Origin: Trichocoleus desertorum NBK24
GTDB lineage: Bacteria > Cyanobacteriota > Cyanobacteriia > FACHB-46
NCBI RefSeq assembly: GCF_030409055.1
Contig: NZ_CP116619.1
Location: 2,705,628-2,769,627, forward strand
Direction: 5' to 3'
DNA length: 64,000 nt
Positions 43,045 to 60,583 of the stretch are shown here, piece after piece (position 1 is the first letter of the stretch; each line of letters starts with the position of its first letter). The translations under genes were made by a program, and so were the position numbers. The notes below the pieces were generated by a model. The model was not told the DNA's origin. It saw only the letters and a program-made list of their open reading frames with translations, and did no database searches.

Positions 43045-43064
43045 ATACCAACTTACGGAAGACT

Positions 43065-43316: not shown

Positions 43317-43327
43317 AACAAGTTAGC

Positions 43328-44071: not shown

Positions 44072-44127
44072 TGACTTTCCTTTGCCTACTGCAATGTTTG
44101 ATTACTGAGTGAAATTAATGGCGTTTT

Positions 44128-44589
44128 TTATAGAGGTTGAGAAGTTAAAACTAGCTTCAGTTTTGCTTGGATTAAATTGAGTTGAGCCAGTCCCAAATCC
44201 ACGCTACCTTCCACGACTACCCCTGTATTTAGCAGGCGATCCAATAACTCTAAAATGGAAGGATTTGTGGAGGTTTCACCTGGGTAGTAGCCTCCAGCTT
44301 TAGGCAGCAGATTGCCAATTTCTCCCAAGTCAATGTTGAGGTCTGCGGGATCGACTTCAAAGATTTCGCAGAGGTGAACCACTTGTTCTTCTAACTTGCG
44401 GAGGCTGGTAGCAGCTCGGTCTAGATCTTCGTCATTCAGGCGTCCTGCTTCCATTCGCCGAATCACTTGGGCTTCCATTAGTTGCCGCACTAGCTCAACC
44501 ACAGTCAGGAGTAACGGCGCTAAACCAGAATCTTTACTCGATTTCTGAGGCTCTAGTAATACGGGAGGTGGGGGGTCGGATAAGGGCAT
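44128..44589 (-). CDS. gvpK: Gas vesicle protein GvpK
   Basis: A 153-residue helical accessory protein. The family core LVRQLMEAQVIRRMEAGRL, the acidic helix with LRKLEEQVVHLCEIFEV, and the late region VDLGLAQLNLIQAKLKLVL are visible. It is required for gas-vesicle formation in studied species; its exact role is unclear. Between gvpJ and gvpK lies a strong minus-strand terminator (44675-44701), so its expression probably depends on read-through. Confidence 0.93.
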   Translation of the reverse strand: MPLSDPPPPVLLEPQKSSKDSGLAPLLLTVVELVRQLMEAQVIRRMEAGRLNDEDLDRAATSLRKLEEQVVHLCEIFEVDPADLNIDLGEIGNLLPKAGGYYPGETSTNPSILELLDRLLNTGVVVEGSVDLGLAQLNLIQAKLKLVLTSQPL

Positions 44590-44674
44590 GGCTTGACCCT
44601 AGGGCTACGAGTTCAGTATGCCCAGCGCGATCGCTATCCTCCCATTTCACCCTGATCCATAAAACTCTTATCCA

Positions 44675-44701
44675 CAAAAAAAGTGGGCACGAAGCCCACT
44701 T
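44675..44701 (-). terminator. Intrinsic terminator between gvpJ and gvpK
   Basis: On the minus strand AAGTGGGC-TTCGT-GCCCACTT is followed by TTTTTTG. Stem at 44681-44688 and 44694-44701; T-tract from 44675. It lies 39 bp past the gvpJ stop, inside the cluster. Confidence 0.8.
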
Positions 44702-44739
44702 GGAGAGGGAGAGTCTATGGCAGAGGAAAAACTATATTT

Positions 44740-45111
44740 CTAAGCAGGAGCTGTGGGAAATGCGGCGGGAGTGGCGCGTAAGGCTCGCAATTCTGTTTCT
44801 AGACCCTCGATCCGTTGGAGGAGTTGCTGATTGGCTTCCATCAGGCTGTGGGTTTGGCTACTGAGATGAGGATCGCTTTCCCACCAGTTGATGCCAATTT
44901 CCTTCGCCTTATCTACCGAAGAAATCAACAAGCGAATCCGAATACTCAGCAGTTCGGTAGAGCCAACTGAAACGGAAATGTCTCCCGCAATCACAATGCC
45001 TTTATCTAAAACTCGTTCTAGGACATCGGCTAAGGTTGAGCCTTGAGTAGCGGTGGCGATCGCACCACGGTTAGAACTGCTAGGGGCGGGCATTTGGGGG
45101 AAAGTAGTCAC
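44740..45111 (-). CDS. gvpJ: Gas vesicle protein GvpJ
   Basis: A 123-residue GvpA-like minor shell or nucleation protein. The core LADVLERVLDKGIVIAGDIS and LLSIRIRLLISSVDKAKEIG matches GvpA's amphipathic fold. It carries an extra N-terminal 25 residues and a C-terminal coiled coil (LMEANQQLLQRIEGLETELRA-like, split) plus an Ala/Pro tail. The start is GTG at 45111, with GAGGAA upstream at good spacing. It is 12 bp downstream of gvpN. GvpJ is thought to shape the vesicle tips in relatives. Confidence 0.92.
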   Translation of the reverse strand: MTTFPQMPAPSSSNRGAIATATQGSTLADVLERVLDKGIVIAGDISVSVGSTELLSIRIRLLISSVDKAKEIGINWWESDPHLSSQTHSLMEANQQLLQRIEGLETELRALRATPAAFPTAPA

Positions 45112-45123
45112 AGTGGGGCTTCC

Positions 45124-46383
45124 TCAGGAAGTGACGTAGAGGCGATTGTTGCGTTGAGCTAGGATTCCCTTTTGAGCTAGGGAACGTAACGCATTCACCG
45201 CCTGAAATCGATTCATGCTTAAGGCTGCTTCAATTTCTGAGACTCGCGCCCCACTGGCCTGACGCAAATAGGTATACACTTCTGCCTCATCTAACCCCAG
45301 TTGATCTTGGTCGCTAATCTCAGGTTCCGCGATCGCAGTAGTGGGTTCAGTCGTAGCCTGAGGAGCAGCCTGAAGTTCAGCAGCCTTTACAGTGGCTGGC
45401 TCGAGTGCAATTGAGGTGGTTGTGATGGTCACGGTGCGATCGGCATACTCTGTTCGTGGCGGTGCAGTCGTGGGTATGGGTGCGATCGCCTTAGGTTCAC
45501 GGCAAACGAGTTCGTTGAGGAGTTCCCAAAGCAGGGTGGTAGATTCCTGTAGAGGCAGGCTGGTGCGGGAGAGCAGCACATCCATACAGATATCTCGGAA
45601 GTCAGCATCCTCCGCCATGACAGGAATATTATGCTCCTGGCAAACTTTGGCGATCGCAATGCCAGAGCGTAAACCAGAAGATTTCTCACCCCCAGATTTA
45701 AGCCGAAAAGCTTTGACCAACTGGGTGATTAAGATGGCGCTTTCTCGCTCGATCTCGGTTTTTTGGACTAAAATCTCTTGCTGAGTCAGCTCATCTGGCT
45801 CTGGCATGTTGATTGTGACCAGACGATCCATCAAGGCATCTTGAGTGGAATGCACCCCACAGTATTCTTCTGGATTGGAGGTGAAGATGGCCCGGAATTG
45901 AGGATTTACTCGCACATATTCGGGACGGTTGCCGCTAGGTGGCAAAGCCAAAATCTTTTCTTCTAAGGCAGAGAGTAAAACATTGTTGACTTCGGGGCGA
46001 GAGCGGTTGAACTCGTCGTAGACCAAGGTGAAACCTTCGCGGCAAGCCAAGGTGAGGCGCGAGTCTACCCAGTTTTGCTTGAGTTCATCCTCAACTTTGA
46101 CGACGCTGTGGATGAAGTTGTCTACAACTTTTTTGCGGGTATAACCCAATTGGTTGCCAATTAAGTCTGAAGTTTTGAACTCGTCATCGCCAAAGACCAA
46201 CATAATGGGCCGAGTCAAAAGGTCAGCCAAGTGTAAAGCCAGAGTGGTTTTACCTGTGCCAGCAGGGCCACGCAGATGCACGGAAAATCCAGATTGCAGG
46301 TAGCGCAAAGCTCTAGCAGCTACACGCTCGACGGCGGGAGTGCTGACAAATCGACGGGGGCGGGCTTGTAGAACGGTACTCAC
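45124..46383 (-). CDS. gvpN: Gas vesicle AAA+ ATPase GvpN with winged-helix tail
   Basis: A 419-residue MoxR-type AAA+ ATPase of gas-vesicle assembly. Residues about 38-50 hold Walker A ([13 protein letters not shown]), with Walker B at [20 protein letters not shown] and sensor 1 at [14 protein letters not shown]. The AAA+ core ends around residue 290. An extra acidic/Thr-Ala linker then leads to a C-terminal module (about 365-417: [20 protein letters not shown] and on) that looks like a winged helix. The same module ends GvpC here, which is unusual. The start GTG overlaps the gvpC stop by four bases (GTGA). Confidence 0.92.
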
Positions 46384-47486
46384 AGGTTAAATTCCTCTTG
46401 GGTGTAATAGACGCGATCGCGCTGCGTAATTAAACCTTTGGTGATTAAGGAGCGGAGCACATCGACGGCTTGAATTCGATTAATCGTTAAAGCAGTTTCT
46501 AGTTCTGCTAAACGAGCTCCTTGAACTTGATGGATGTAGTTGTAAACTTCTTTTTCGATGTCTACAGGTTTGGGTTGAGCAGGGGGAATTGGAGCGCTAG
46601 TAGGCTCTGAATTTGACCTCTGCCCGTCTGTGGCCCCCCTCTTCTGTAGGAGAGGGAATGGGGGAGAGGTTTGGCTTTGAGTTAATTGATTTTCTAAATC
46701 TGCGCCCCAAACAGAAGTTCGCAAGTTGGTGCAATGTTGCTGTAGTTCAGTGCGAAAGGTGTCGAAGCGTTGGAACAGCGCTGCGACATGGGCTTGGCGA
46801 TCGCTTTTACTTTGGCTGAGGGTTTGTTGCAGTTGTTGGGCTCGGTCTTCTCGTAGTAGCTCCAGCTCCCACAAATAGCTCTGCACATCAGCACTAAGTT
46901 TCTCGACAAAGGTAGTGAGTTCTTTTGCTTGTTGGGTTCGCATTAAAACCCGTTCATGCTGACTGGTTGATAAGAGCGCTTGAGTTTCTTGTTGAAGCGT
47001 AGAAACTTGCGTTTGAATCTCTTGGCGCAGCAGGGTAACACTGGCATTTAGCTCGGAGTGGAATTGGCGTAGTTCTTGGGCTAATTGCTCAGCCATCAGC
47101 GATCGCTCTATGGCAGTCAGTGATAAAAACTCAGCCGTCTGCTCTTGGAGCTTTTGTACAAAACTATCTAGCTGCTCAGCTAGCTCCTCAGCTTGGATTT
47201 GACGCTCTAAGCGACTGTAAGCCAGAAAATTCTGGGTTTCTTGTTGCAACGCCTGGACTGACTGTTGCAGTTGCAGCCGGAACAGATGTTGGTTGGCTTG
47301 CCAAAGTTCACTCTCTTCCGTTAAATCAGCGCGAAATGCAGCGAGGTTGTTATGAACCTGGGCTGCTCGGACTTGGCGTTGTTGCCGCGTTGCCGCTAAA
47401 GCTGCTTGTACTTGTTGCTGGCGCTGAGCTAGTTGCTGCTGGCGCTGCCGCCGCTGTTCTTGCCATAAGTTTCTCAGAGCAACCAT
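46380..47486 (-). CDS. gvpC: Gas vesicle shell-strengthening protein GvpC fused to a winged-helix module
   Basis: About 368 residues. An N-terminal Gln/Arg-rich coiled coil precedes GvpC repeats of about 33 residues. The clearest start [32 protein letters not shown] and [16 protein letters not shown], each ending in an [F/L]xxF/[K/E] turn. The region closes at LRTSVWG, as GvpC normally ends. A linker containing [15 protein letters not shown], the translation of an interspersed repeat, leads to a C-terminal module (about 320-368: [20 protein letters not shown] and on) nearly the same as that of GvpN. Start: ATG 47486 behind GGAAGGA; the frame is open to 47570. Confidence 0.87.
46631..46680 (+). 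repeat. Interspersed repeat within gvpC linker
   Basis: CCCCCCTCTTCTGTAGGAG followed by AGGGAATGGGGGAGAGGT has the look of a common cyanobacterial dispersed hairpin repeat. Here it is in frame and encodes the [11 protein letters not shown] segment between the GvpC repeats and the winged-helix module. Confidence 0.55.
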
Positions 47487-47541
47487 TGCGAGTTTCCTTC
47501 CACAAGCCGAGAGATCAGCCGAAATAAAAATGGGCGAAATG

Positions 47542-47568
47542 AAAAAAGGGGAGTCAGCAAGACTCCCC
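47542..47568 (-). terminator. Intrinsic terminator between gvpA and gvpC
   Basis: On the minus strand GGGGAGTC-TTGCT-GACTCCCC is followed by TTTTTT. Stem at 47548-47555 and 47561-47568. Located 10 bp past the gvpA stop and about 60 bp before the gvpC ATG, it should make gvpA message far more abundant than the rest of the cluster. Confidence 0.88.
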
Positions 47569-47578
47569 AAGCTAGCTA

Positions 47579-47797
47579 CTAAGCAGCAGGAACCGCAGCT
47601 TGAGTGGTCAAACCTACTGCTTCGGCATACTTTAGGTAGGTTTCAACGGAAGCAATTACAACCCGTGCCTCGATTGCCAACAGTTCGATTCCTACTAGGG
47701 AAACGCGAACCCAAGCATCAATGACAATACCTTTGTCGAGGATGCGGTCAATCACTTCAGCCAAACTAGAGGAGGAGTTTACTTTCTCAACAGCCAT
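47579..47797 (-). CDS. gvpA: Major gas vesicle structural protein GvpA
   Basis: The small hydrophobic protein that builds the ribs of the vesicle wall. The 72-residue sequence [20 protein letters not shown], followed by [20 protein letters not shown] and [20 protein letters not shown], is the near-invariant GvpA fold. Only one copy is present, whereas several cyanobacteria have tandem gvpA genes. TAGGAAA precedes the ATG at fair spacing. It is the first gene of the leftward gvp cluster and is followed by its own terminator. Confidence 0.98.
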
Positions 47798-48164
47798 GAT
47801 GATTTCCTAGGTGTATTAATTGATAAATTTTTGGGGCCTGAAACACCACAGCCTTTTCATAGCAAGGGTTTGATGGAGCTGTGGGTACAAGGCTAGAATA
47901 AGTATTTAAGGTATTAAAAAGGCCAGCATAAACACGGAAAATCTGCCTCAGCAATTTTTGCTGTTGAGAGAAGTACTGAGGACAGTGCGTGAAGCTCGGA
48001 AAAGTTTTTGCAATGAATTGATTCAGTGATGCGATCGCTCCCACTTCAAAAATAAGCAGCACTTCATTACTAAAATGCTGCCTATAGGAACCTGCTTTCT
48101 TTGAGAAACTGCACTCCATGCTCCTGAGAACCTATACGAAAGGGTATGGAGCGAGCGGAAAGAG
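47798..48164. promoter_or_regulatory. gvpA upstream region
   Basis: A 367-bp gap between the CDC48-like gene and gvpA, both on the minus strand. It must hold the gvpA promoter, but no clear -35/-10 pair could be chosen. CCACAGC (47846-47852) and GCTGTGG (47878-47884) form an inverted repeat about 50-90 bp upstream of the gvpA start and may be an operator or leader stem. A weaker GCAGCA/TGCTGC stem lies near 48055-48081. Confidence 0.4.
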
Positions 48165-49991
48165 TTATGGGGTTTGTCTTTGGGCAGCGAGAGCTTGATA
48201 AGCAGAGGCAAACTCATCGTTACTAATCCGAATTTGGGTAGGATCGGCAAGTCCTGTGGCTCGGTAATGTCGAACAGCTTCTAAAGCGGCTTGATTACTC
48301 AGAAGGGCCAAATCTGCACCGTTCCAACCTTCCGTTTGTGCGGCCCAAGATGCTAGGTCTACGCCTTTTAAGGGTCGATCTTGGTTATGTACTTGCAAAA
48401 TGGCGAGGCGACTGGCTTGATCCGGTAGATCGACTTTGAGTTGTAAATCTAAGCGTCCCGCTCGTAGGAGGGCAGGGTCGAGGGCATCGGGGCGATTGGT
48501 CGCTCCAATCAGCAACACATTCGGGCAGCCTTGCAAGCCATCTAGTTCAGTTAAAAGTTGACCCACGACGCGATCGCTGACTCCAGAATCTCCATTAAAG
48601 CGGCCTCGTGCTGGAGCCAGGGTGTCAATCTCATCCACAAACACGACACAAGGAGCCGCTTGACGAGCCTTGCCGAATAATTCCCGCACGGCTTGTTCGG
48701 CAGCACCGACCCAACGGCTCAATAATTCTGGGCCATTAACGGCGATGAAGTTGGCTCTAGCTTGAGACGCCACGGCTTTAGCAAGGAGCGTTTTACCTGT
48801 ACCTGGTGGTCCCCAAAGCAGAATGCCGCGTGGCGCTTTGGCTCCCGTTTGTTGATAGAGTTCTGGGTAAAGCAGTGCCCCTTCCACAGATTCTTGGAGC
48901 GTTCGCTTCAGGTCATCTAGTCCGCCAATGTCATCCCAAGCTACGTCCGGGGACTCAATCTCTACCGAGCGCAGAACGGCGGGCTTGACTTCTTTGATGG
49001 CTTGCAGGAAGTCTTGCTGTGTTAAGGTCATTTCTTCGGGCGGGGGTTCATCTAAAGAAGGGACTAAGCGGCGCAAGGCACTGTAGGCAGCTTTTTGGCA
49101 AAGGGCTTTTAGGTCTGCACCGACTAGGCCAACTGCCAAGTCAGCGATCGCCCCTAAGTCCACTGAATCTAAGGGCATGGACTGGGTGAGAATCTGCAAA
49201 ATCTCTAATCGGCCATCGCGATCGGGCACTCGAAATTGAACTTCGCGATCGAAGCGACCAGGACGACGCAGTGCTGGGTCAAGATGATCGGGGCGGTTGG
49301 TGGCCGCGAGAACAATTACACCCTCGGTTTTGGCAAAGCCATCCATTAGCCCTAACAGTTGGGCGACCAGACGCTTCTCGACTTCCCCTTCCACTTTGCT
49401 GCGATCGGGAGCGAGGCTATCAATTTCATCAATAAACACCAGGCAGGGAGCAGACTTAGCGGCTTTGTCAAAAATGGCTCGCAATCGACCTTCGGCTTCC
49501 CCGTAATATTTCCCCATGACTTCGGGGCCAACGATCGCGATGTAGTTGACTCCTAAGTCTTCGGCTAAGGCGCGGGCAGTTAAAGTCTTACCTGTTCCGG
49601 GTGGTCCGACTAGCAACACACCTTTAGTGGGTTCCAAACCCAACCGTTGCAACAACTCTGGACGCTTGAGGGGAATTTCTACCAGTTCTCGCAGTTCCTT
49701 GAGGACAGGCGCTAGCCCACCCACGGTCTGTAGCGGTGGGGCTTTGGAGTCGCGGATCGGTGGCGTGACGGTGACTTCGGGGGTTGGGGCAGATGTCGCA
49801 TCAGCGCCAGGAGAAGTGACAGGGCCACGACGCACGCCCATACCTGAGGGGATGTTTCCTTGTCGGGGAATACTACTTAAACTGCGGGAGCGAAACTGAA
49901 TATCTGTCTTGATTTCTCCCTGTTCTGCCTTTTCTTCTAGGGCTTTGGCGAGTTCTATCAGTTGCTCAAACCCTTTGAATAAGTTGTCCAT
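48165..49991 (-). CDS. CDC48-type double AAA+ ATPase
   Basis: A 608-residue protein with two AAA+ domains (about 100-325 and 355-590). Walker A: GPPGTGKTLTARALAE and GPPGTGKTLLAKAVAS. Walker B: LVFIDEIDSLAPDR and VVFVDEIDTLAPAR. Both second-region-of-homology arginines (RRPGRFDREV, LRAGRLDLQL) are present. The N-terminal 95 residues are low-complexity and lack the classic CDC48 double-psi barrel. Such ATPases remodel or extract proteins. It is codirectional with gvpA downstream and divergent, across 95 bp, from the ArsA-like gene, so a gas-vesicle chaperone role is inferred. Confidence 0.88.
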   Translation of the reverse strand: MDNLFKGFEQLIELAKALEEKAEQGEIKTDIQFRSRSLSSIPRQGNIPSGMGVRRGPVTSPGADATSAPTPEVTVTPPIRDSKAPPLQTVGGLAPVLKELRELVEIPLKRPELLQRLGLEPTKGVLLVGPPGTGKTLTARALAEDLGVNYIAIVGPEVMGKYYGEAEGRLRAIFDKAAKSAPCLVFIDEIDSLAPDRSKVEGEVEKRLVAQLLGLMDGFAKTEGVIVLAATNRPDHLDPALRRPGRFDREVQFRVPDRDGRLEILQILTQSMPLDSVDLGAIADLAVGLVGADLKALCQKAAYSALRRLVPSLDEPPPEEMTLTQQDFLQAIKEVKPAVLRSVEIESPDVAWDDIGGLDDLKRTLQESVEGALLYPELYQQTGAKAPRGILLWGPPGTGKTLLAKAVASQARANFIAVNGPELLSRWVGAAEQAVRELFGKARQAAPCVVFVDEIDTLAPARGRFNGDSGVSDRVVGQLLTELDGLQGCPNVLLIGATNRPDALDPALLRAGRLDLQLKVDLPDQASRLAILQVHNQDRPLKGVDLASWAAQTEGWNGADLALLSNQAALEAVRHYRATGLADPTQIRISNDEFASAYQALAAQRQTP

Positions 49992-50086
49992 GCTTGTGCT
50001 GCCAGTTGGGTGATGCCAGTGAGGTGATGCAAGATAGCGATCGGTTCCAGGCCCATTGATTCAGGTGTAACAATCTTTACGAGCCT

Positions 50087-51955
50087 ATGCATCAGTATGA
50101 TTCCCTGCAACTCGCTCTCTTTAGCGGCAAAGGGGGTGTCGGTAAAACCACACTTTCCTGCGGTTTCGCTCGCCGCTGGGCCAAACAGTTTCCTGAGCAA
50201 ACAATTCTTTTAGTTTCCACTGATCCAGCTCATTCCTTGGGCGATGTGCTGCAAACAGAAACCAGTAATACGTCCCATGCCTTAGCCGATTTACCCAACT
50301 TGCAGGTGCGATCGCTGGATGCTGCGGCCCTTCTCCAAGACTTTAAAGCTCGGTATGGTCAGGTTTTAGAGCTTTTAGTAGAGCGAGGCAGTTTTGTTCA
50401 GGGAGAAGATCTATCTCCGGTTTGGAACTTAAGCTGGCCAGGGCTGGATGAGTTGATGGGCATTCTGGAAATCCAACGCCTCTTGCGAGAAGGAGAAGCT
50501 GATCGCGTGGTGGTGGATATGGCACCCAGCGGCCATACGATTAACTTGTTTAAGTTGATGGATTTCTTGGATGAGTTGCTGACGGCGTTGGAACTGTTTC
50601 AAGAAAAACATCGAGTTCTGAGCCAAAGTTTTACCGGACGTTACACCGCTGATGATGCCGATGCTTTTCTCTATGAGATGAAAGCAGAGCTATTGGCTGG
50701 GCGATCGCTTTTGCAAAACCCTGACTGCACCGCTTGTCTGGTAGTAGCGATCGCGGAACCGATGAGCTTTTTGGAAACTCAGCGGTTTTTAGAGGCACTG
50801 AACCAACTGCAAATTCCCTTGGGTGGACTGCTGGTGAATCACATTCTTACGCCGCTTGAGGATGGCGATCGCTACTATGAGCAGCAGGAGATTTTAGGCA
50901 AGTTTCAAACCCTGGGTGATCAGCCGATTTTCACTGTCCCCCAGCAACTTGAAGAACCTGTCGGCTCAGCCCCGCTCGATCATCTGGTGGCTCAGATCAC
51001 GCCTTTAGAAGTTGTGTTTTCTACTCCGCCAGTGGTGGTGCAATGGCCTACCAAAGTTTCTCCCAGTTTTGAGGATTTTATGGCGGCAGATCGGCAACTT
51101 TTACTCGTTGGGGGCAAAGGAGGAGTGGGCAAAACCACAGTCGCCGCTGCGATCGCTTGGGGTATGGCTGAACGACATCCCGATCGCCAAGTGCGAGTCA
51201 TTTCCATAGACCCCGCTCATTCTTTAGGCGATGCCTTTGGGCAACCGTTAGGACATCAGCCGACAGCATTAACCCACAACTTAACCGGGCAGGAAATTGA
51301 TGCCAGCGAAGTTCTAAACCAGTTCCGAGAGGAGTACCTGTGGGAACTGGCGGAGATGATGAGTGGGGATAGTTCCGAGGGCGATCGATCGCTCAGCATT
51401 GCCTACGGCCCCGAAGCATGGCGACGGATTGCCGCTCAAGCGTTACCAGGCATTGATGAGATGTTGTCGCTGATCACGGTGATCGATTTGCTGGAGCGGC
51501 AAGAGCAAGATTTGATTATTTTGGATACCGCTCCAACTGGACACTTGCTCCGCTTCCTCGAAATGCCTACCGCTCTGGGAGATTGGCTAGCCTGGATTTT
51601 TAAGCTGTGGATCAAGTATCAGGATGTGTTGGGGCGAACTGAGTTTATGGGGCGTCTGCGATCGCTGCGGCAACGGGTGATGCAAGCGCAAAAACGGCTC
51701 CAAGACCCGAAATATACCGAGTTTATTTTGGTGTTACAAGCGCAGTCGGCCATTGTGGCCGAGGGTCAGCGTTTAGCTCAGTCCTTAGCGGAGATGGGGG
51801 TGTCTCAACGCTACGTGGTTCATAACCGCTTTGAACCAGAACTCCTGCTGCCTGCTGATGCTTTACCTCAGCACACCACCATTCATCTGCCAGTCTTGCC
51901 CCGCTCCGTGACTCCCCTCGCTCGGATTCAAGGTGCAGCGGAGTTGTTGTTCTAA
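50087..51955 (+). CDS. Tandem ArsA/Get3-like ATPase
   Basis: A 622-residue protein with two ArsA-type domains. P-loops: SGKGGVGKTTLSC (about residue 13) and GGKGGVGKTTVAA (about 343). Switch motifs: DPAHSLGD in both halves, DMAPSGHTINLF and DTAPTGHLLRFLEMP. This is the tandem layout of bacterial ArsA (arsenite pump ATPase), but no ArsB, ArsD or ArsR gene lies near and no conserved metal-binding Cys triad is evident. A Get3-like role in handling hydrophobic proteins, such as GvpA, is possible given its position among gas-vesicle genes. The ATG at 50087 is firm. Confidence 0.85.
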   Translation: MHQYDSLQLALFSGKGGVGKTTLSCGFARRWAKQFPEQTILLVSTDPAHSLGDVLQTETSNTSHALADLPNLQVRSLDAAALLQDFKARYGQVLELLVERGSFVQGEDLSPVWNLSWPGLDELMGILEIQRLLREGEADRVVVDMAPSGHTINLFKLMDFLDELLTALELFQEKHRVLSQSFTGRYTADDADAFLYEMKAELLAGRSLLQNPDCTACLVVAIAEPMSFLETQRFLEALNQLQIPLGGLLVNHILTPLEDGDRYYEQQEILGKFQTLGDQPIFTVPQQLEEPVGSAPLDHLVAQITPLEVVFSTPPVVVQWPTKVSPSFEDFMAADRQLLLVGGKGGVGKTTVAAAIAWGMAERHPDRQVRVISIDPAHSLGDAFGQPLGHQPTALTHNLTGQEIDASEVLNQFREEYLWELAEMMSGDSSEGDRSLSIAYGPEAWRRIAAQALPGIDEMLSLITVIDLLERQEQDLIILDTAPTGHLLRFLEMPTALGDWLAWIFKLWIKYQDVLGRTEFMGRLRSLRQRVMQAQKRLQDPKYTEFILVLQAQSAIVAEGQRLAQSLAEMGVSQRYVVHNRFEPELLLPADALPQHTTIHLPVLPRSVTPLARIQGAAELLF

Positions 51956-51963
51956 AGCTCAAG

Positions 51964-52641
51964 CTAAACGAAATGATAGGGAGGAAGCGCTTCACTGAGA
52001 GTCAGTTCCCAATGAGGGCATTGAATTTGCCAGGTTTGTAAGTGTTCGTAAAGTTGGGGGCCTTCCTGAGCATTCACTAACAGATACACTCGTTGGCTGC
52101 CATCTTGTGCTTCACCTAAGACTGGCCCCGGATAGATTTGGGCGATCGCTTGCACCAAGGTCTGCCACTCAGCCGTCTGCTGCTGTTGCTGTTCGTACTG
52201 ACTTTGGAAACGGCGTTTTTTCGCTAAAAAATATTCTCGCCCCTGCGCCTCTGTTGGCAAGGTGGCTTCGATCTCCAAGACTAAGGGAGTTAACTTCAGG
52301 GTGTATTCGGCTTTCCCAGTCACCCTGGCTAACTTCTCCAGATATTCCTGGCTGTGGGTTTGCAAATGAGCTAGCAATCCTTCAGTGGATAAAAACCGAG
52401 TGCCAAACCGCAGGGGCAGTAAAGCGGTCTGCTCAAACAATTCTCGAATCACGCGATCGTGGGTCAACACTGCTTGAACTAACTGAGCGTCATGATCTTG
52501 TAGCGTTTCAAAAGACAACTCAGGTTCGATTAGGGCAGAGAGGCGATCGCAAGTCACTAGCTCCAAAGCACTCACAATTCCAGATGGTAGTTCGATGGCA
52601 CTTGTGGGTGTGTTGAGGAAAGCATAGGTGTACATCGGCAT
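51964..52641 (-). CDS. Second GvpL/GvpF family protein
   Basis: A 225-residue GvpL/F protein. YTYAFLNTPTSAIELPSGI, the SALIEPELSFETLQDHDAQL region, VLTHDRVIRELFEQTALLPL and RFGTRFLSTEGLLAHL match the family. A charged coiled coil (KKRRFQSQYEQQQQQTAEWQ) follows, and PPYHFV closes the protein as in GvpF. It is the last gene of the leftward KGK-HNH-MazG-like operon, 90 bp after the repeat protein, and ends 8 bp from the convergent ArsA-like gene. It gives the operon its direct link to gas vesicles. Confidence 0.9.
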   Translation of the reverse strand: MPMYTYAFLNTPTSAIELPSGIVSALELVTCDRLSALIEPELSFETLQDHDAQLVQAVLTHDRVIRELFEQTALLPLRFGTRFLSTEGLLAHLQTHSQEYLEKLARVTGKAEYTLKLTPLVLEIEATLPTEAQGREYFLAKKRRFQSQYEQQQQQTAEWQTLVQAIAQIYPGPVLGEAQDGSQRVYLLVNAQEGPQLYEHLQTWQIQCPHWELTLSEALPPYHFV

Positions 52642-52731
52642 CTAGGCGAGCTTGAAGCAGCCAGGTTACTTCAGGCAGGACGTGGTGAACAAAGGCGGCA
52701 TTTTCCTGCTTTATTTATCCACTTTAAGCCC

Positions 52732-54330
52732 CTAGGTGACGGAATCTGAAATCAGCTCAAGACCAATTTTGAGTTGCAGGCGTCCAGCAGACCAAGCATC
52801 GCTCACGGGTGGTTGTAGGGCGATGGGAGTGCCTTGAAGGAGTTGTTGCAAGAGTGGTGTATTAGCTTCAATCGGCTGAAGTAGTTGGGTGAGGAAGGTG
52901 GCTGCGGGTTGCAAGTCTTTCCCACCTGCACCGGAACTGACTCGAAGTAAGGTTTGGGTCGCCAAAGCATTGGGAAGGGTTTTGAGTACTTGTCCAGTTG
53001 ACAGATCGAATAGCCAGTTTAGGTGGGGAGCGCTAACATCGAGCACGGCAAACAACCGCAGAGTCCCTGTCAGCCAAGGCTCATCGGGTTGCAGTACCTC
53101 CGCTGGTATGCCGCCTACAAGGTGCATTGTCTGATAAGCGCTGCTGGTAAGTTGCCAAAGCAACTGTGGGAGCCAGCGATCGACACAAATTTCTGGCTGA
53201 AATGGCCCATCCGGTGCTAGCTCAGTGGCATTGGGTATTTCCTTTGCGATCGCCTCAGCAGTTGCTACAACGCTGGGTAGCAGTACAGCAGGGAGATCAG
53301 TAGAGGCTGGATCGGCTTCAGGCGCAGCAGTTGCATGAGCGATCGCCACACTCAGGGTTTGTAGCTGAGTTTGAAAGTAGGCTTGCGCGATCGTTGGCTC
53401 GGTTAGCTTGACCTTTAAAGCTGTCCCAAATGCTGATATGCCGTTGGGGGCTGTGAGATCCGTGAGGGTTGTGCCCTCGGTAAATTCAAACGCAAACTGC
53501 AACTGTAAAGTGCCCGACTGCCAAGCCTGTCCGGGTTGGAGACAATCGACTGCGGTAGGCTCAGTAAAACGCTGCATTTCTGGCGTCACGGTCTGCATTT
53601 GCTGGAGCAACTGCTGGGTAAAGCGCTGTGCCCAAGTGGGTTGATTGCAGAAATTTTCGCCCTCAGTCTGAATCAGGGCTTGATGCGTCAGGTTGTTGGC
53701 AGGTGGCTGATTGGTGGCTAAATCTAACGCCCATTCTTCATGGGGCAACTTCAGCGTTAGCAAGGCCACGAGACGTAAAGCCCCCGTTTGCCAACCTTGT
53801 CCAGGCTGAAACACTTTTGCTTCAACGCCACAAAGCAGGCGCATTAAGTCGTAGGAGCTTTTGGCAATGTACCAAAGCCACTGCGGAATTAAGTCTTCAA
53901 TCAAAAAATAGTCTGGTAGGGTCGCCGTTGCAGCGGGTGCGACTGGCCCAGAAGATGAACCTAGAGAGCTGGTTTGTAGCGCTTCCAAGAGTTCGTAGGC
54001 TTCTTCTGTGACGTAAGGAATCAAGTTTTCAATCGTTGGCTCCAAGTCGGTCGGCCAGCCACTCTGGGGCGATCGCAACTTGGCTACGATTGCCACCAAT
54101 CGCTGCATCGTTTCTAGAACGGGCTGAGCAACTGGCTGAGCTAAGACTAGTGGCTGCGAGTTGCTCTCAATGGCGGTTGGCTCACTCAACTTCAAAACTG
54201 TTTTGGCGATCGCGGCAAAGTCAAATTTGGGGTCAAACTCCTCGGCTTCAGCCACCAACTCTCCTTCTAGGCACTCGATTGCCTCAGAAGCTAGCATCGG
54301 CACCACTAGAGAAGATTGAGGTTGGGTCAT
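52732..54330 (-). CDS. MazG-like/KGK-like repeat protein
   Basis: About 532 residues; not a named family. After an acidic N-terminus, residues 74-119 resemble the MazG pyrophosphohydrolase start (TMQRLVAIVAKLRSPQSGWP, then LIPYVTEEAYELLEAL), but the later ExxD half is absent, so catalysis is unlikely. Two tandem units of about 150 residues follow (from about 139 and 378), each starting with PQ[W/L]LW plus a helix. Each carries two KGK-like motifs: FQPGQGWQTGALRL, LQPGQAWQSGTLQL, LQPDEPWLTGTLRL and a looser fourth near 503. The five upstream paralogues share that core. ATG 54330, 20 bp past the HNH stop, is preferred over 54411. Confidence 0.7.
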   Translation of the reverse strand: MTQPQSSLVVPMLASEAIECLEGELVAEAEEFDPKFDFAAIAKTVLKLSEPTAIESNSQPLVLAQPVAQPVLETMQRLVAIVAKLRSPQSGWPTDLEPTIENLIPYVTEEAYELLEALQTSSLGSSSGPVAPAATATLPDYFLIEDLIPQWLWYIAKSSYDLMRLLCGVEAKVFQPGQGWQTGALRLVALLTLKLPHEEWALDLATNQPPANNLTHQALIQTEGENFCNQPTWAQRFTQQLLQQMQTVTPEMQRFTEPTAVDCLQPGQAWQSGTLQLQFAFEFTEGTTLTDLTAPNGISAFGTALKVKLTEPTIAQAYFQTQLQTLSVAIAHATAAPEADPASTDLPAVLLPSVVATAEAIAKEIPNATELAPDGPFQPEICVDRWLPQLLWQLTSSAYQTMHLVGGIPAEVLQPDEPWLTGTLRLFAVLDVSAPHLNWLFDLSTGQVLKTLPNALATQTLLRVSSGAGGKDLQPAATFLTQLLQPIEANTPLLQQLLQGTPIALQPPVSDAWSAGRLQLKIGLELISDSVT

Positions 54331-54350
54331 GGCTGTCTCTGCTGGAGTGT

Positions 54351-54596
54351 CTAGAGGTTGAAGTGGCGCTGAAATCGCGGATCGAGATAATGCTGTTTCT
54401 GCTGATTGCAAGGCAGACAGAGCGTTTGCAGGTTACTAATGTCGTTAGACCCGCCTCGCGCCAATGGAATGATGTGGTCGATACTGAGATGCACCTCTAC
54501 TTGAGTCTGCCCACAGCTTCGGCATTGATAGCGATCGCGCTCAAACACATATTTCCGAACTTCTGGCGGAATCCGAATTCGCGGGGTTTTGCTCAT
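54351..54596 (-). CDS. HNH endonuclease
   Basis: An 81-residue HNH nuclease. The structural zinc ligands CRSC and CLPC flank the catalytic LSIDHIIPLARGGSNDISNL (D-H...N...H-type site). Very small stand-alone HNH proteins of this type nick or cut DNA; some belong to phage packaging or mobile elements, others have no known role. It sits inside the KGK/GvpL-F operon, between the last KGK gene and the MazG-like protein, in the same direction and with short spacing. No intron or intein is evident nearby. Confidence 0.87.
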   Translation of the reverse strand: MSKTPRIRIPPEVRKYVFERDRYQCRSCGQTQVEVHLSIDHIIPLARGGSNDISNLQTLCLPCNQQKQHYLDPRFQRHFNL

Positions 54597-54620
54597 AATG
54601 TTTTTCTTACGGCTTTTTGC

Positions 54621-54953
54621 TCACGAAGGGTCTTGCCAGACATCGTTAGGAATCGCTTGACGAATATCATCCAAGGGTGACTTCATTTCGTCGGGAAGAA
54701 ATTCCAAGCTGACTCTAATTTTGCCTTTACGCCAACCCTGTCCATCAAACTTGAGGGCTTCACATTCCATGCCTTCAGCAAAGACACTAATTTCTTGATC
54801 GGAAGGTAGAGATTTCTCGGCGATCGCTTCGATAAATTCAACAACTCTAAGGGTCCGAGGTAATTCTAAATAGTCCGAGATGTCTTCGGAGTAAATCGAA
54901 AGGACTTCATCATATTTCAAGGCTTGAAATTTGTTGTTCTCGCTATTTTCCAT
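54621..54953 (-). CDS. KGK-family protein 5
   Basis: A 110-residue member of the Pfam KGK family. Shared core: CEALKFDGQGWRKGKIRVSL, then EFLPDE, and the tail KSPLDDIRQ. The N-terminus (FQALKYDEVLSIYSEDISDY) is diverged but keeps the paralogue pattern of an acidic start and a helix with EFIEAI. Molecular function of KGK proteins is unknown. It follows KGK protein 4 by 3 bp, and the HNH gene starts 24 bp downstream. Confidence 0.8.
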   Translation of the reverse strand: MENSENNKFQALKYDEVLSIYSEDISDYLELPRTLRVVEFIEAIAEKSLPSDQEISVFAEGMECEALKFDGQGWRKGKIRVSLEFLPDEMKSPLDDIRQAIPNDVWQDPS

Positions 54954-54956
54954 AAG

Positions 54957-55262
54957 TTAATCGCGATCGCCTTCTTCTGAAATTTGTTGACGAATATCAT
55001 CAAGCGGTGATTCTACTTCATCAGGACAGAAAGCCAAGCTAATTTTGACTTTACCCTTTCGCCAGCCTTTAGAAGGGCTTAAAACCTCACAACTAATACC
55101 TTTGCTCAACCATCCTTCAGCTTCATCAGAATATAAATAATCTCGTTGCAAAAGCTCAAGAAACTCACCAGCTTTAAAAGTCGTATGAGAGACTACTATT
55201 TGGTCAGCCTCTTCTACAGAAATTACTTCGGTATCCGATAAGACTTGGAATTGATTATTCAT
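54957..55262 (-). CDS. KGK-family protein 4
   Basis: About 101 residues. The conserved module reads CEVLSPSKGWRKGKVKISLA, FCPDE, then the tail ESPLDDIRQ. The N-terminal part has FKAGEFLELLQRDYLY, equivalent to FKVEEFL in its sister. The frame is open to 55322, but ATG 55262 (MNNQFQVLSDTEVISV) matches the starts of the other paralogues. It lies 31 bp after KGK protein 3 and 3 bp before KGK protein 5. Confidence 0.8.
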   Translation of the reverse strand: MNNQFQVLSDTEVISVEEADQIVVSHTTFKAGEFLELLQRDYLYSDEAEGWLSKGISCEVLSPSKGWRKGKVKISLAFCPDEVESPLDDIRQQISEEGDRD

Positions 55263-55293
55263 TCTTTCCTGTTCCTGGATTCGTTTATGTAAA

Positions 55294-55674
55294 TTAGTGA
55301 GATTGCATCTGGCGAATATCATCCAGGGACGATTTTACTTGCTCATTTAATAAACCAATGCCTTCAGTTACTTCTTCTGCTTCATCAGGACAGAACTCAA
55401 CTGCTATCCTAATTCTAAGCTTTCCTTTTTTCCATCCTTTAGCATCAGTTCGCAAGATTTCACAATCTATTCCTTTGCTAAACCAATCTCGCCAACTTCC
55501 TGGTATACCTCCTTTAGGGTTTAAGGCTGTGGAAAAAGCTTGATAACCAGGGTGCGGGAATGTTTCTTGAATCTTTGACAAGAATTCTTCTACCTTAAAC
55601 ATAGAACTAGAAAACATTAGGGCAGCATCTTTATCAAGAGATTGAGTATTAAGCTCCCGAAAATCATTACTCAT
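55294..55674 (-). CDS. KGK-family protein 3
   Basis: About 126 residues. Core: CEILRTDAKGWKKGKLRIRI, EFCPDE, then a longer acidic spacer and the tail KSSLDDIRQ. FKVEEFLSKIQETF precedes it. ATG 55674 (MSNDFRELNTQSLDKD) is preferred; the frame opens further upstream to 55731 with non-matching sequence. The preceding gene ends 74 bp away, the largest gap in the series. Confidence 0.8.
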   Translation of the reverse strand: MSNDFRELNTQSLDKDAALMFSSSMFKVEEFLSKIQETFPHPGYQAFSTALNPKGGIPGSWRDWFSKGIDCEILRTDAKGWKKGKLRIRIAVEFCPDEAEEVTEGIGLLNEQVKSSLDDIRQMQSH

Positions 55675-55748
55675 GGATATTTCTGTGTTAGATGGATATT
55701 GAGAAGAAGATAGTTTTTGCCGTGTACACATTATTCAGCTTGCAGCAA

Positions 55749-56144
55749 CTATTCATTAATCATTTGGCGAATATCATCCAGGGTTGATTCTGTCTGATCA
55801 TTTTCTGTTTCATCAGGACAAAATTCTAAATCTACTTTCACTCTGATTCGAATTTTCCCCTTCTGCCAGCCTTGAGGCCCAGGTCTGAGAACTTCACAAT
55901 TTCCTCCTTCACTAAACCACCATTCATTGGATTCCTCGCGATAAGCATCGCTAAAACTTCGGGTATCAATTGGGACATTCTGTTGGGCCAAAGCTTCATA
56001 TAGGTAGGGGCCAACATATCTTGAATTAAATGCATTTTTGAGGGCTTCTGTTAACTGCTCCACCTTAAACAACCGAGAATCAAAAGAAACAATATCCTTG
56101 CTGTCAAAATCATTTAGGCTGTATCGATTATTCATATCTTCCAT
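55749..56144 (-). CDS. KGK-family protein 2
   Basis: About 131 residues. Core: CEVLRPGPQGWQKGKIRIRV, LEFCPDE, then the tail ESTLDDIRQ. The N-terminal part FDSRLFKVEQLTEALKNAF fits the family helix. ATG 56144 is used, with 56135 as an alternative; the frame is open to 56186. It begins 7 bp after the stop of KGK protein 1. Confidence 0.8.
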   Translation of the reverse strand: MEDMNNRYSLNDFDSKDIVSFDSRLFKVEQLTEALKNAFNSRYVGPYLYEALAQQNVPIDTRSFSDAYREESNEWWFSEGGNCEVLRPGPQGWQKGKIRIRVKVDLEFCPDETENDQTESTLDDIRQMINE

Positions 56145-56151
56145 TGGAATT

Positions 56152-56484
56152 TTAGTTTTCCTCAGCGATTGCTTGCCGAATATCATCGAGTGGGGATTCT
56201 GTTATTTCAGGCTCATCGGGGCAGAATTCTACACTGGCTCTGATTTTGATTTTTCCCTTCTGCCAAGATTTATCACCAAGCCTCAAAATTTCGCAAGATA
56301 CACCTTCTTCAAGCCACTTTTCCGAAGAAACTCCTAGATTGGTATTAAATTTTATTGGCACCCAATTTCGATCCATGAATGTGTTTTTTGCAACATTTTT
56401 GAATTTACCTGTTTTATGCAAAACAGAATCAAATGCAATCACATCTTCATGACCAAACTCAGATAGAAAATCTTGATTTTCCAT
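56152..56484 (-). CDS. KGK-family protein 1
   Basis: A 110-residue KGK protein and the first gene of the leftward operon. Core: CEILRLGDKSWQKGKIKIRA, EFCPDE, then the tail ESPLDDIRQAIAEE. The N-terminus FGHEDVIAFDSVLHKTGKFK is like that of KGK protein 2. AGGAG upstream at good spacing supports ATG 56484. The upstream 200 bp hold dispersed palindromic repeats and probably the operon promoter. Confidence 0.82.
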   Translation of the reverse strand: MENQDFLSEFGHEDVIAFDSVLHKTGKFKNVAKNTFMDRNWVPIKFNTNLGVSSEKWLEEGVSCEILRLGDKSWQKGKIKIRASVEFCPDEPEITESPLDDIRQAIAEEN

Positions 56485-56574
56485 GTAACTTTTTAACTCC
56501 TGAAGTTCTTGGGGACGGGTGTCGGATGTTGCTTTAAGCGGTCTTGACTGTGCTTTTTGAAGCTCTGCGTTAGC

Positions 56575-56675
56575 CCCCTCAGTCCCCCAATACTGGGGGA
56601 AGCTAAGAGTTCAGTTCTCTACTTAGGGAAGGCTAAGAATCTAGTTCCCCCCAAATTTGGGGGGCTAGGGGAGCC
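56575..56675. repeat. Pair of palindromic dispersed repeats
   Basis: CCCCCA-ATAC-TGGGGG (56584-56599) and the perfect 18-bp palindrome CCCCCCAAATTTGGGGGG (56647-56664) lie in the 199-bp gap between the dynamin stop and KGK protein 1. The second closely matches the repeat embedded in coaX. Either hairpin may end dynamin transcription. Confidence 0.7.
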
Positions 56676-56683
56676 TTTTACAC

Positions 56684-59170
56684 CTAAGCCAAATTAGCGT
56701 TGGTCTCAGTCACACTAGTTTGAGTCCCATTACTTGAACCGAAATCAAAAGTTTCTGAGTTGTAAGCAGCAGGAACCGTTTGATCGAAGTCAGGAGTAGA
56801 GATAAAAGGGAGCTGGCGATCGCGTAATTGCATCGCTTGTAAGCAACCATTGATCGCTTCAACTGCTTGGTTATAAGTCGCAATATTGTGATCAACTTCT
56901 GTAAGGAGACGTTGATTGCGGAGGATTTTTTCTTCCGCTTCCTTCTCCAGCGTTTGCTCCAAATAAGCGCGAGCATGGTCATATTGCTGGAAGATGGCAT
57001 CTGCTTGTTGCTCTGCCATTGGTAACAAGTGAGTTTTCAGCGTTTGGTTGAGCGTTTGACGGAAGTTGCGGCGGATGGTCGCTGACACCTTCGGTTCAAA
57101 ATCTAGCTTCAGCAATTGGCGAATCGCGGGTTCTGCCTCAGCCATACTTTCGCAGTCATACCCTTGAGACGTTTGTTGCAAGGTTTGGCGCAGTTGGAAA
57201 AAGAACGGGGAATCGCCAAAAAACTGGGGAGTTTCGCGCACATAGCGATCGCATTCAATTCGAGCTTGGTTCGCGATCGCGTGTCGGACTTGCGCTTCCA
57301 GGTGCTTCAGTTGGGCTTCAATGCCGCCATCATTGCCCAATAAGCGATAGAGCTTGCGGTAGTAGTCTGACTTGCGAACCTGCTCCGTTAAGTATTGGAA
57401 AAAGGCAGTCACCACCGCTTGAGATGCCTCAACCAAAACGGTTTCCAGCTCATTTGCCAAGTAGTAAAACGCTTCTACTAAAATCGCCATCAGAGGGGCT
57501 GTGGCATTGCGGGGATGGCTGAGCGTGGCCCGACTGTAAGCATCCGCCACCGAGAACGTATTCAGCAACTCATCCAAGCGGCTCACCATGCGGGCTTTTA
57601 GCTTGATAAATGCTGCCTCAAACGTGGTGTTGGTGACATCTCCGGCGATCGCATTCACTTCCTGGGCGATCGCTTGAGAGAAATCCGCTCCAATCTGCTT
57701 CAGCTCATGTCCTAGATGCTCCAGTTCACGAGCTTTCATCGCGTCGATCGCGCGGGGTTGGCTGTCTAGCTCTCGTCGAGCGGTGAGGTAGTGATTGCGG
57801 AGATTGATGCAGAGCGGTTGCAAATCATCGGCTAAGTTAGCGAACAGTTGTGGTCGCTTTTCTTCAGTCAGGTAGCGGGTGATGGCAATGCGGAATTCCT
57901 CAATGCCGCTATCTTGAATCAACTGCTCCACCAGAGGCGCACCCGACTCTTGCAGAATCCGCACATAGTTCTCGTTGGGCGTTTCGTAGCTGTTAACCGA
58001 GATGCGGAAGCGGCTAGAGGCGAGTTTGCCAGAGTTGGCACAGTAGCGGTTGAATTCGTTCACAAACTGCGGCGTTTCTTCCTGCCCATCCAAGCCTTTG
58101 ATGCTCTCAGCAAAGACAGAATCCAGGCCAAAGCGATCGCCAACCTTAGTTTGCTTAATCTGGCTACCATAAAAGCCCAACAAACCACTGGTCTTGTAGA
58201 CTCTGGTGGAATCCCGGAACTGAGCTTGCACTAGATCATCCAACCGTTGCCGCAGTTGGCTGTTGTACCAAGTTTCGTCAATCCGGTTGAACACATAGAA
58301 GACGCGATCGCGAATGCCGATATTGCTCCGCATCTTCTCTAGAAGTTCTGTTTCTTCGGTGGTCATGTCTCCCGCTGCCGCAGGTTTCAGGACGCAAACC
58401 ACGGCTGAGGTGTCCGAGTCTTCAATTTTGCGGTAGGTCAGCTCGGCATCTTTTTTCACCGGGGCATCAATTCCGGGCATGTCTACCAAAACGTTGCCAT
58501 CTTGCAAGAGGGGGTGATGGCAGTAGTACTCGATCCGCCTCAGAACCGAGCTGTTGCTACCCCGACGGGCAAAACTAGCGGCTTCTTTGAGGCTGGAGAA
58601 GTTGAACTGCTCCATTGAGTAAGTCGCGTGATTGGTGGGGTGTAGGCGATCGCGGTTAGCCGCAAACCCTTCCAATAACAAAATCAGCGCTTTGGCTTGC
58701 TTAGCTCGCTCAGATTTACTTTCACCGCCTTCCTGCTGAATGATCGCCTGACAGCCTTGATGCAGCAGCCCCATCACTTCTGGCTGATCGATATTGTCTC
58801 TTGCCGATAAACCTAACTTCTGACACAGAGCGTTTGCCTGTTCTCGGATTTCGGCTTCACTGAGGAACGTGAGCACGACTCGCTCCTGATCTGACTCGGC
58901 GTACTCGACATAGCACTCAGTTCCGGTGGCGTGACCTTCGGCGCTATAGAGCAATTCTCGCTCCAGCAAGGCGTTGATCAGCATTGACTTCCCGGCACTA
59001 AATGCCCCTGCAAACACGATCTGGAATTTCGGGGCGATCGCTTTTTTCAGAGACGATTGGATGACGGTGACATCTTGCTGGGCACGTAACGACGGTTCTT
59101 GGTGCAACAGTTGCAGCAGAGAATCGACCTGTTCTGGCAGGCTCTGACACTGGAGGGGCATTTGAGTCAT
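56684..59170 (-). CDS. Dynamin-like GTPase
   Basis: An 828-residue bacterial dynamin-like protein. G1 is GAFSAGKSMLINALL (P-loop about 55-62), a switch threonine lies in GHATGTECYVEY, G3 is DMPGID and G4 is NRID. The rest (about 420-800) is predicted long helices, forming the stalk, with hydrophobic stretches near LMAILVEAFYYLANELETVL that may act as a membrane paddle. Bacterial dynamins remodel membranes and some aid phage resistance or membrane repair. It lies on the same strand as the KGK operon, upstream of it, with a repeat-rich gap between. Whether it belongs to the system is unproven. Confidence 0.85.
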   Translation of the reverse strand: MTQMPLQCQSLPEQVDSLLQLLHQEPSLRAQQDVTVIQSSLKKAIAPKFQIVFAGAFSAGKSMLINALLERELLYSAEGHATGTECYVEYAESDQERVVLTFLSEAEIREQANALCQKLGLSARDNIDQPEVMGLLHQGCQAIIQQEGGESKSERAKQAKALILLLEGFAANRDRLHPTNHATYSMEQFNFSSLKEAASFARRGSNSSVLRRIEYYCHHPLLQDGNVLVDMPGIDAPVKKDAELTYRKIEDSDTSAVVCVLKPAAAGDMTTEETELLEKMRSNIGIRDRVFYVFNRIDETWYNSQLRQRLDDLVQAQFRDSTRVYKTSGLLGFYGSQIKQTKVGDRFGLDSVFAESIKGLDGQEETPQFVNEFNRYCANSGKLASSRFRISVNSYETPNENYVRILQESGAPLVEQLIQDSGIEEFRIAITRYLTEEKRPQLFANLADDLQPLCINLRNHYLTARRELDSQPRAIDAMKARELEHLGHELKQIGADFSQAIAQEVNAIAGDVTNTTFEAAFIKLKARMVSRLDELLNTFSVADAYSRATLSHPRNATAPLMAILVEAFYYLANELETVLVEASQAVVTAFFQYLTEQVRKSDYYRKLYRLLGNDGGIEAQLKHLEAQVRHAIANQARIECDRYVRETPQFFGDSPFFFQLRQTLQQTSQGYDCESMAEAEPAIRQLLKLDFEPKVSATIRRNFRQTLNQTLKTHLLPMAEQQADAIFQQYDHARAYLEQTLEKEAEEKILRNQRLLTEVDHNIATYNQAVEAINGCLQAMQLRDRQLPFISTPDFDQTVPAAYNSETFDFGSSNGTQTSVTETNANLA

Positions 59171-59281
59171 AGTGCGAATACTGGAGAGAATTGCTCTGGA
59201 CGCGGAATCGTGCTAACCACATCCCCCAGAGTTCCCATTCCTCGCTTGTCGGCAGCACCATACCCTCTAGCCGCTATGTCG

Positions 59282-60583
59282 TCATGAGATGTCTCGTGGA
59301 GGTTGCTGGCTGATGGTGAGTAATGTGACTGGGTTGAGTGGCGCGAAACGGGTCAGCGGCCCCACGGGAACCGATCGCGAGAGTTGCACTTGCAGGAGAC
59401 GATGTTGCCAAGTCTGTGATTGAAGCAATAGAGCGTTTTGCTGTTCTAGCCAAGTCAAAGCTTGATTCAGGTGCTCTAGGGTGGCTAGGGCTAAAACTAA
59501 AACTCCTCTAGCCGCTAAACGGGCTGCACAAATATCGAGAATGGAGTGCAAGTTGCCGCCACTGCCCCCAATGAAAATGCGATCGGGATGGGGAAGAGTT
59601 TGCAAAGCGATGGGAGCCGCCCCGTGAATTGCGGTGATGTTTTGCAGTTGAAAGCGATCGCGGTTTTGCTGGATTAAACTAGCGCCGATCGCGGTTTTTT
59701 CAATCGCGTAGATCTGGACATCGGGCACTAAGCGAGCTATCTCAACCGAGACGGAACCTGTCCCCGCGCCAATATCCCAAATCACTTGTTTAGGTTGGAG
59801 GGCTAATTCTGTCAGCACTAAAGTCCGCACCTCGCGCTTGGTCATCAGGTTGGGGCGATCGCTAAAGCTAAGAAATGCGGCATCTGGTAGCCCCAGCAGC
59901 GGTAAAGTTTTGCAGTCTAGAGGTTCTGTCTGGCTGTCTGAGCGCAGCAAAATCACCACATTAAGCGGAGCAAAGGTTTCTTGCTGCAACGCTTTTAGCG
60001 ACCAAGCTTGGACTCGTTCGTCAGCGCTACCTAAGTTCTCGCACACCCAAACTTGATAGCGCTGGGGTAGATCAAGATTTTGCAGCAGACGGGCGATCGC
60101 AGCGGGGGAATGAATGTTGTCTGTGAGGACAGCAATTTTGGCGGCACCTTGTTGAATCGCCTGAGTTAGCTCATCCAAAGAGCGTCCATGAGCGCTAATG
60201 ATCCGAGCATCTTGCCAGGGCACTTTGACGCGGTTAAAGGCAAGTTGTACAGAGCTGAGATGGGGGTGAAAAGTTAATTGTTCTACTGGCAATTCGGCTA
60301 GCAGCAACCGTCCTAAGCCAAAAAAGAGCGGATCGCCAGAAGTTAAAACCACAACCTGAGGAGAAGGTGTTGCGGTTGCGGTTGTCGCGAGGTGCTGGCG
60401 GATGGTGGCGATCGCAGAGGTAAAATCTCCCAACTTTAGTTTTTCGGCGGGGTGCTCTGGAAAATAGCTTAAATGGCGATCGCTGCCAACCAATAGTGTC
60501 GCTTCTGCAATGATTGTTTGAATGGCAGGAGTCAGACCAGCGGCTCCATCTAAGCCGATTCCGACGACATGGATGGGGCTCAT
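59282..60583 (-). CDS. cobL: Precorrin-6Y C5,15-methyltransferase (CbiE-CbiT fusion)
   Basis: A bifunctional cobalamin-pathway enzyme that methylates precorrin-6Y at C5 and C15 and decarboxylates it. The N-terminal CbiE domain (about 1-205) starts IHVVGIGLDGAAGLTPAIQT and contains VVVLTSGDPLFFGLGRLL. The C-terminal CbiT domain (about 235-420) has the SAM motif VIWDIGAGTGSVSVEIARL and IFIGGSGGNLHSIL. The 433-residue length fits the fused form. It starts 10 bp after cobH, so the two form an operon. Confidence 0.95.
   Translation of the reverse strand: MSPIHVVGIGLDGAAGLTPAIQTIIAEATLLVGSDRHLSYFPEHPAEKLKLGDFTSAIATIRQHLATTATATPSPQVVVLTSGDPLFFGLGRLLLAELPVEQLTFHPHLSSVQLAFNRVKVPWQDARIISAHGRSLDELTQAIQQGAAKIAVLTDNIHSPAAIARLLQNLDLPQRYQVWVCENLGSADERVQAWSLKALQQETFAPLNVVILLRSDSQTEPLDCKTLPLLGLPDAAFLSFSDRPNLMTKREVRTLVLTELALQPKQVIWDIGAGTGSVSVEIARLVPDVQIYAIEKTAIGASLIQQNRDRFQLQNITAIHGAAPIALQTLPHPDRIFIGGSGGNLHSILDICAARLAARGVLVLALATLEHLNQALTWLEQQNALLLQSQTWQHRLLQVQLSRSVPVGPLTRFAPLNPVTLLTISQQPPRDIS

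Follow-up and report, generated by a model that had tools for sequence, protein, structure and literature searches.

The 64,000-nucleotide stretch of Trichocoleus desertorum NBK24 analysed here (contig NZ_CP116619.1, positions 2,705,628 to 2,769,627; hereafter the window) carries a run of eight leftward genes next to its gas-vesicle (gvp) cluster. Five encode small KGK-family proteins, one an HNH protein, one a long protein with a MazG-like N-terminus and KGK-like repeats (MK), and one a second GvpL/GvpF gas-vesicle protein (L2). The initial annotation took the run for one operon joining KGK proteins to a GvpL/F protein in the service of gas vesicles. We find instead that two conserved modules abut here: a dynamin-like protein (DLP) gene with the KGK array and HNH, and MK with L2, each of which recurs elsewhere as a separate set. 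Our preferred explanation, to which we give a probability of roughly 0.7, is that two functionally separate modules have been joined in this lineage, the KGK proteins serving as dynamin adaptors and MK as a scaffold or chaperone working with GvpL/F. The gene order, the homologies and the statistics on co-occurrence and adjacency are observed; that the KGK proteins are adaptors, that MK is a scaffold, and that any of these proteins bind as proposed, we infer.

Gas vesicles provide the buoyancy of bloom-forming cyanobacteria and are also used as acoustic reporters. To our knowledge, the cyanobacterial set of gas-vesicle accessory proteins is incompletely described. The present analysis assigns the KGK array to a dynamin in place of gas vesicles, and it puts forward MK, which about half of the sampled gvp-positive genomes carry, as a new, testable candidate in gas-vesicle assembly. 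For KGK, a domain of unknown function, two hypotheses result: adaptor of a bacterial dynamin and scaffold for GvpL/F. The genes concerned, in order of transcription, are as follows.

56684..59170, minus strand: DLP, dynamin-like protein, 828 aa; SynDLP/Slr0869 orthologue, Pfam Dynamin_N; first gene of module 1
56152..56484, minus strand: KGK1, 110 aa; PF08872, 89.4 bits
55749..56186, minus strand: KGK2, 145 aa by longest open reading frame (ORF); PF08872, 106.8 bits
55294..55731, minus strand: KGK3, 145 aa by longest ORF; PF08872, 93.6 bits
54957..55322, minus strand: KGK4, 121 aa by longest ORF; PF08872, 53.1 bits
54621..54953, minus strand: KGK5, 110 aa; PF08872, 48.7 bits; best-conserved array member in both congeners
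54351..54596, minus strand: HNH protein, 81 aa; HNH_5, 76.5 bits; conserved last gene of module 1
52732..54330, minus strand: MK protein, 532 aa; four KGK-like repeats after a degenerate MazG N-terminus; opens module 2
51964..52641, minus strand: L2, second GvpL/GvpF, 225 aa; PF06386, 109.2 bits over residues 3-225; last gene of the run

All eight ORFs at 51964-56484 were recovered on the minus strand with Pfam families matching their names, as first annotated. The accompanying statement that every junction is a gap stands for most of them (3-90 bp); with the longest ORFs, two pairs overlap, KGK1/KGK2 at 56152-56186 and KGK3/KGK4 at 55294-55322. The five small proteins all exceed the Pfam gathering cut-off for KGK (25.6 bits; range 48.7-106.8), and there are no KGK genes elsewhere in the 5.46-Mb genome. 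The DLP gene, 200 bp upstream of KGK1 on the same strand, had been left outside the run as originally delimited.

A survey covered 291 genomes from the class, each with a completeness of 90% or more, which were searched for KGK (PF08872), GvpL/F (PF06386), MK, L2 and DLP; genomes, loci and families are labelled G, L and f below. Distances and adjacency refer to the strongest matches listed (about 150 per table), and many of the assemblies are fragmented. In most fetched loci the first module has the order DLP–KGK(1–7)–HNH, across many families and including gvp-negative genomes (L067–L079). The full order DLP–KGK–HNH–MK–L2 was seen in this genus (three genomes) and in G049 (L050), from another family (families f1 and f27).

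The partner of the KGK array

Does the KGK array belong to gas vesicles? A gas-vesicle or buoyancy function had been proposed for the KGK proteins, with a survey of KGK near gvp genes across cyanobacteria as the check. KGK occurs in 130 of the 291 genomes and gvp in 159; both are present in 95, and 35 genomes have KGK without gvp, often as tandem arrays. The crude odds ratio between the two is 4.1, and this link disappears on stratification by family (45 observed versus 46.1 expected, P=0.76); it is therefore phylogenetic. Among the matches listed, KGK lies less than 20 kb from the main gvpF in 4 of the 43 genomes in which both were located, and three of these four belong to this genus. By co-occurrence and distance, the array was rejected as a gas-vesicle component. 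By its own check, the buoyancy proposal is thus unsupported for the five-protein array, which tracks dynamin, and survives in altered form for the KGK-like repeat protein MK, whose occurrence is linked to gvp and which adjoins L2.

Association with the dynamin holds within families (54 genomes observed versus 37.7 expected, P=4e-12). Among the matches listed, 53 of 72 genomes with strong KGK matches carry KGK less than 8 kb from a KGK-clade DLP, and 26 of these 53 have no gvp. Linkage of DLP and KGK is already published (PMC5827413, PMC10104851), and the former paper gives this dynamin as the known partner of KGK. The DLP of the window matches PDB 7zw6, 'Slr0869 protein', with 1121.6 bits by phmmer over residues 2-797, and its Cys8 and Cys776 match the C8-C777 disulfide pair of KGK-clade DLPs (the BSE cysteines). 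In a Synechocystis lexA mutant, slr0868–slr0871, including the dynamin gene slr0869, rise together 6- to 16-fold (PMC4759255); the KGK gene of Synechocystis is presumably slr0870 or slr0871. The present locus resembles the KGK-clade DLP systems with a downstream KGK (PMC5827413; SynDLP, PMC10104851) in its orthologous dynamin directly upstream and its conserved disulfide cysteines (C8/C776). It differs from them in a fast-evolving five-copy array that ends in HNH; neither HNH nor tandem expansion is mentioned in the consulted passages of the published accounts.

Could the KGK proteins, in this lineage, nonetheless act on gas vesicles as MK may, binding GvpL/F or the shell within a single functional operon? 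All eight genes share a strand and are closely spaced, and no minus-strand terminator-like site was found between them, a weak test in that scan sites were no commoner than in shuffled sequence. MK, through its KGK-like repeats, is a KGK relative linked to gas vesicles; the junction is kept in the genus and in G049; and in G006 DLP–KGK lies about 10 kb from gvpG, with MK–L2 elsewhere. Such an operon is difficult to reconcile with KGK arrays in 35 gvp-negative genomes, the absence of any KGK-gvp association within families and the scarcity of KGK near gvpF outside one genus among the matches listed, and we regard it as quite unlikely. Alternatively, the modules may be distinct and their junction retained since shared transcription ties membrane work by the dynamin to gas-vesicle synthesis, for instance under a common stress. 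The junction is indeed conserved in two families, f1 and f27, and among the matches listed KGK lies within 50 kb of gvpF in three (f1, f7 and f27). The lineages are few, however, the modules lie far apart in other gvp-positive genomes, and shared ancestry alone would explain the retention; we hold this coupling to be unlikely.

What, then, would the KGK proteins do for the dynamin? Under the preferred explanation, they would be adaptors or regulators of a SynDLP-type dynamin GTPase. Their consensus comprises the segment GxxCEILxxGxxGWQKGKxRIxxxLEFCPDE and a C-terminal ESPLDDIRQ tail. The constant C-terminal part (the GWxKGK segment with the tail) may bind one partner shared by all, which is most likely the dynamin; membrane or protein targets would be selected by the variable N-terminal part. 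Within the genus, DLP, HNH, MK and L2 are 88–99% identical and KGK5 is 93–96% identical (two congeners), and KGK2–KGK4 vary in number and are mostly strongly diverged; G024 carries seven copies. Rapid turnover combined with a constant tail would fit a set of adaptors sharing one partner. In a tree of 65 KGK proteins, the window copies do not form one group and most pair with copies of a congener, so the array appears older than the genus, although many forks in this tree of short, divergent sequences are unsupported. A structure model of the five paralogues (predicted local distance difference test, pLDDT, 48) places strands about the KGK motif and a helix at the C-terminus, and nothing further was read from it. 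In the congener G039, two KGK genes contain in-frame stops (L082:6648-7357) between intact neighbours, and the array there is therefore decaying.

The same turnover could be a mark of conflict, with DLP-KGK-HNH acting as an anti-phage or stress-defence operon and the gvp neighbourhood incidental. KGK members change fast between flanks that are 88-99% identical, one congener has two disrupted copies, the module includes an HNH protein of nuclease type, and in Synechocystis the genes respond when LexA is lost (PMC4759255). We nevertheless find this very unlikely: PADLOC returned weak sub-domain matches of DLP (LeoA, 39 bits) and generic HNH matches, and SynDLP is described as acting on thylakoid lipids (PMC10104851). 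With no strong PADLOC match, a defence system was rejected.

MK and its link to gas vesicles

MK probably starts at the ATG at 54330 (532 aa), about 20 bp past the HNH stop; the listed TTG at 54411 overlaps HNH. Its recognizable segments are these, the repeats being scored with a KGK-core hidden Markov model (HMM).

53968..54108, minus strand: MazG-like segment, aa 75-121; NCBIfam PRK09562, 37 bits, far under the cut-off; EExxE helix kept, ExxD lost
53770..53829, minus strand: KGK-like repeat 1, aa 168-187; KGK-core HMM, 11.3 bits
53482..53541, minus strand: KGK-like repeat 2, aa 264-283; KGK-core HMM, 7.7 bits
53053..53115, minus strand: KGK-like repeat 3, aa 406-426; KGK-core HMM, 5.6 bits
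52744..52803, minus strand: KGK-like repeat 4, aa 510-529; KGK-core HMM, 5.1 bits

Shuffled sequences give about 0.001 hits of at least 2 bits per sequence with the same HMM. In Pfam, MK scores 32.2 bits for KGK (cut-off 25.6), in a partial match that covers profile positions 27-93 of 119, and MazG is below threshold. An hhalign comparison of the MK and KGK family profiles, which bears on repeat 2, gives a probability of 94.5% (E 7.6e-8), and a search with the MK profile independently recovers KGK proteins. The five small proteins are thus members of the KGK family (PF08872), and MK holds four degenerate copies of its core; it differs from them in its length, which is 4-5 times theirs, in its MazG-like N-terminus, and in being devoid of the KGK triplet and the ESPLDDIRQ tail. 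Neither Pfam nor NCBIfam has an MK-specific family.

Is MK an enzyme? Residues 75-121 resemble the N-terminus of MazG nucleoside triphosphate pyrophosphohydrolase and, by profile, PDB 3cra, but the match extends over only some 47 aa at the start of the fold; the catalytic motif is missing and the remaining fold is unmatched. Even when relaxed, the EExxE(12-28)ExxD motif is absent from 16 of 17 MK proteins (the other has one chance-like variant), and it occurs twice in the MazG control. An active MazG was rejected on the loss of the active-site motif and the partial fold, and the MazG-like N-terminus is probably catalytically dead.

MK homologues, assigned by E-value and span (homology reaching past the MazG-like part), occur in 74 of the 291 genomes, and 73 of these are gvp-positive. 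The sole gvp-negative one, G220, is a 700-contig assembly with a gvp-positive congener. The association with gvp persists on stratification, with P=2e-7 for families and P=0.004 for genera (only three strata are informative in each). Among the matches listed, 42 genomes, representing 7 families and 18 genera, have MK next to L2, almost without exception on the same strand, and this L2 frequently lies at a distance from the main gvp cluster. When a profile was run against another 52 genomes, of which 48 are gvp-positive, it retrieved one missed full-length MK, in the gvp-positive G012; the rest were ordinary MazG and KGK-type proteins. True MazG genes were the only matches when named genomes were scanned for MK.

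Almost confined in this way to gvp genomes and linked to gvp genes, MK may well be an accessory protein of gas vesicles that has so far gone undescribed. Among the papers searched, we found none that links gas vesicles with KGK, dynamin or a MazG-like accessory protein. In haloarchaea, GvpL acts as a hub to which nearly all other Gvps bind (PMC9501494). MK may accordingly be pictured as an accessory scaffold or chaperone that would act with the adjacent GvpL/F in gas-vesicle assembly. The more specific proposal, a pseudo-MazG with four KGK-type repeats forming a multivalent scaffold for the second GvpL/F in many cyanobacteria, is one to which we give even odds. If true, it would mean that a dynamin-associated family has been repurposed, giving the KGK domain a role in gas vesicles.

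Several observations weigh against the two-module explanation and the roles proposed within it. Among the matches listed, 31 MK placements are not beside L2, with 24 on different contigs, partly because the assemblies are fragmented. MK is absent from many gvp-positive genomes, including the whole of families f23, f31 and f5, and is therefore not a core Gvp but an accessory found in certain lineages. The eight genes may form one transcript in this lineage, since no terminator was found between them and their order is kept in the genus and in G049. Finally, the adaptor and scaffold roles are proposals, and the structure models have low pLDDT (48 for the KGK paralogues and 35 for MK alone, the latter not interpreted).

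The second GvpL/GvpF gene and the gvp neighbourhood

With few exceptions, gvp-positive genomes carry two GvpL/F genes. L2 is a clear member of the GvpL/GvpF family (PF06386), and the pair per genome recalls gvpF and cyanobacterial gvpW. It differs from the curated GvpL equivalog, against which it scores only 19 bits (cut-off 200), and in standing apart from the main cluster, paired with MK. Position points to gvpW as the probable identity of L2: in both L062 and L064 the gene lies beyond gvpG, past a small opposite-strand gene, a placement that matches the published order FG + V + W. That small gene, a coiled-coil-like ORF between gvpG and the second GvpL/F (L062:4913-5254, L064:5656-5973), is probably gvpV.

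The main gvp cluster of the window (gvpG, F, K, J, N, C, A) occupies 43065-47797 and is followed by a CDC48-like AAA ATPase (48165-49991) and a double ArsA-type ATPase (50087-51955). In L062 and L064, which belong to another family, these ATPases stand beside the second GvpL/F, and they may therefore be further gas-vesicle associated genes. GvpK (44128-44589) has a C-terminal GvpA/J-type Gas_vesicle domain at residues 111-149 and is thus a GvpK-GvpA/J fusion. The GvpC-like protein (46380-47570) and GvpN (45124-46383) share a similar C-terminal segment of about 50 aa that weakly matches TrmB-type winged helices; it looks as though these two neighbouring genes had each gained a helix-turn-helix-like domain.

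No RNA elements were found with Rfam in 42900–60000. One further feature lies between the dynamin gene and the array.

56510..56683, no strand: DLP-KGK1 spacer; holds the palindromic genome repeat CCCCCCAAATTTGGGGGGAACTAG at 56620-56670

At up to 2 mismatches, this repeat has 7 copies in the genome, and a reversed-pattern control has 0.

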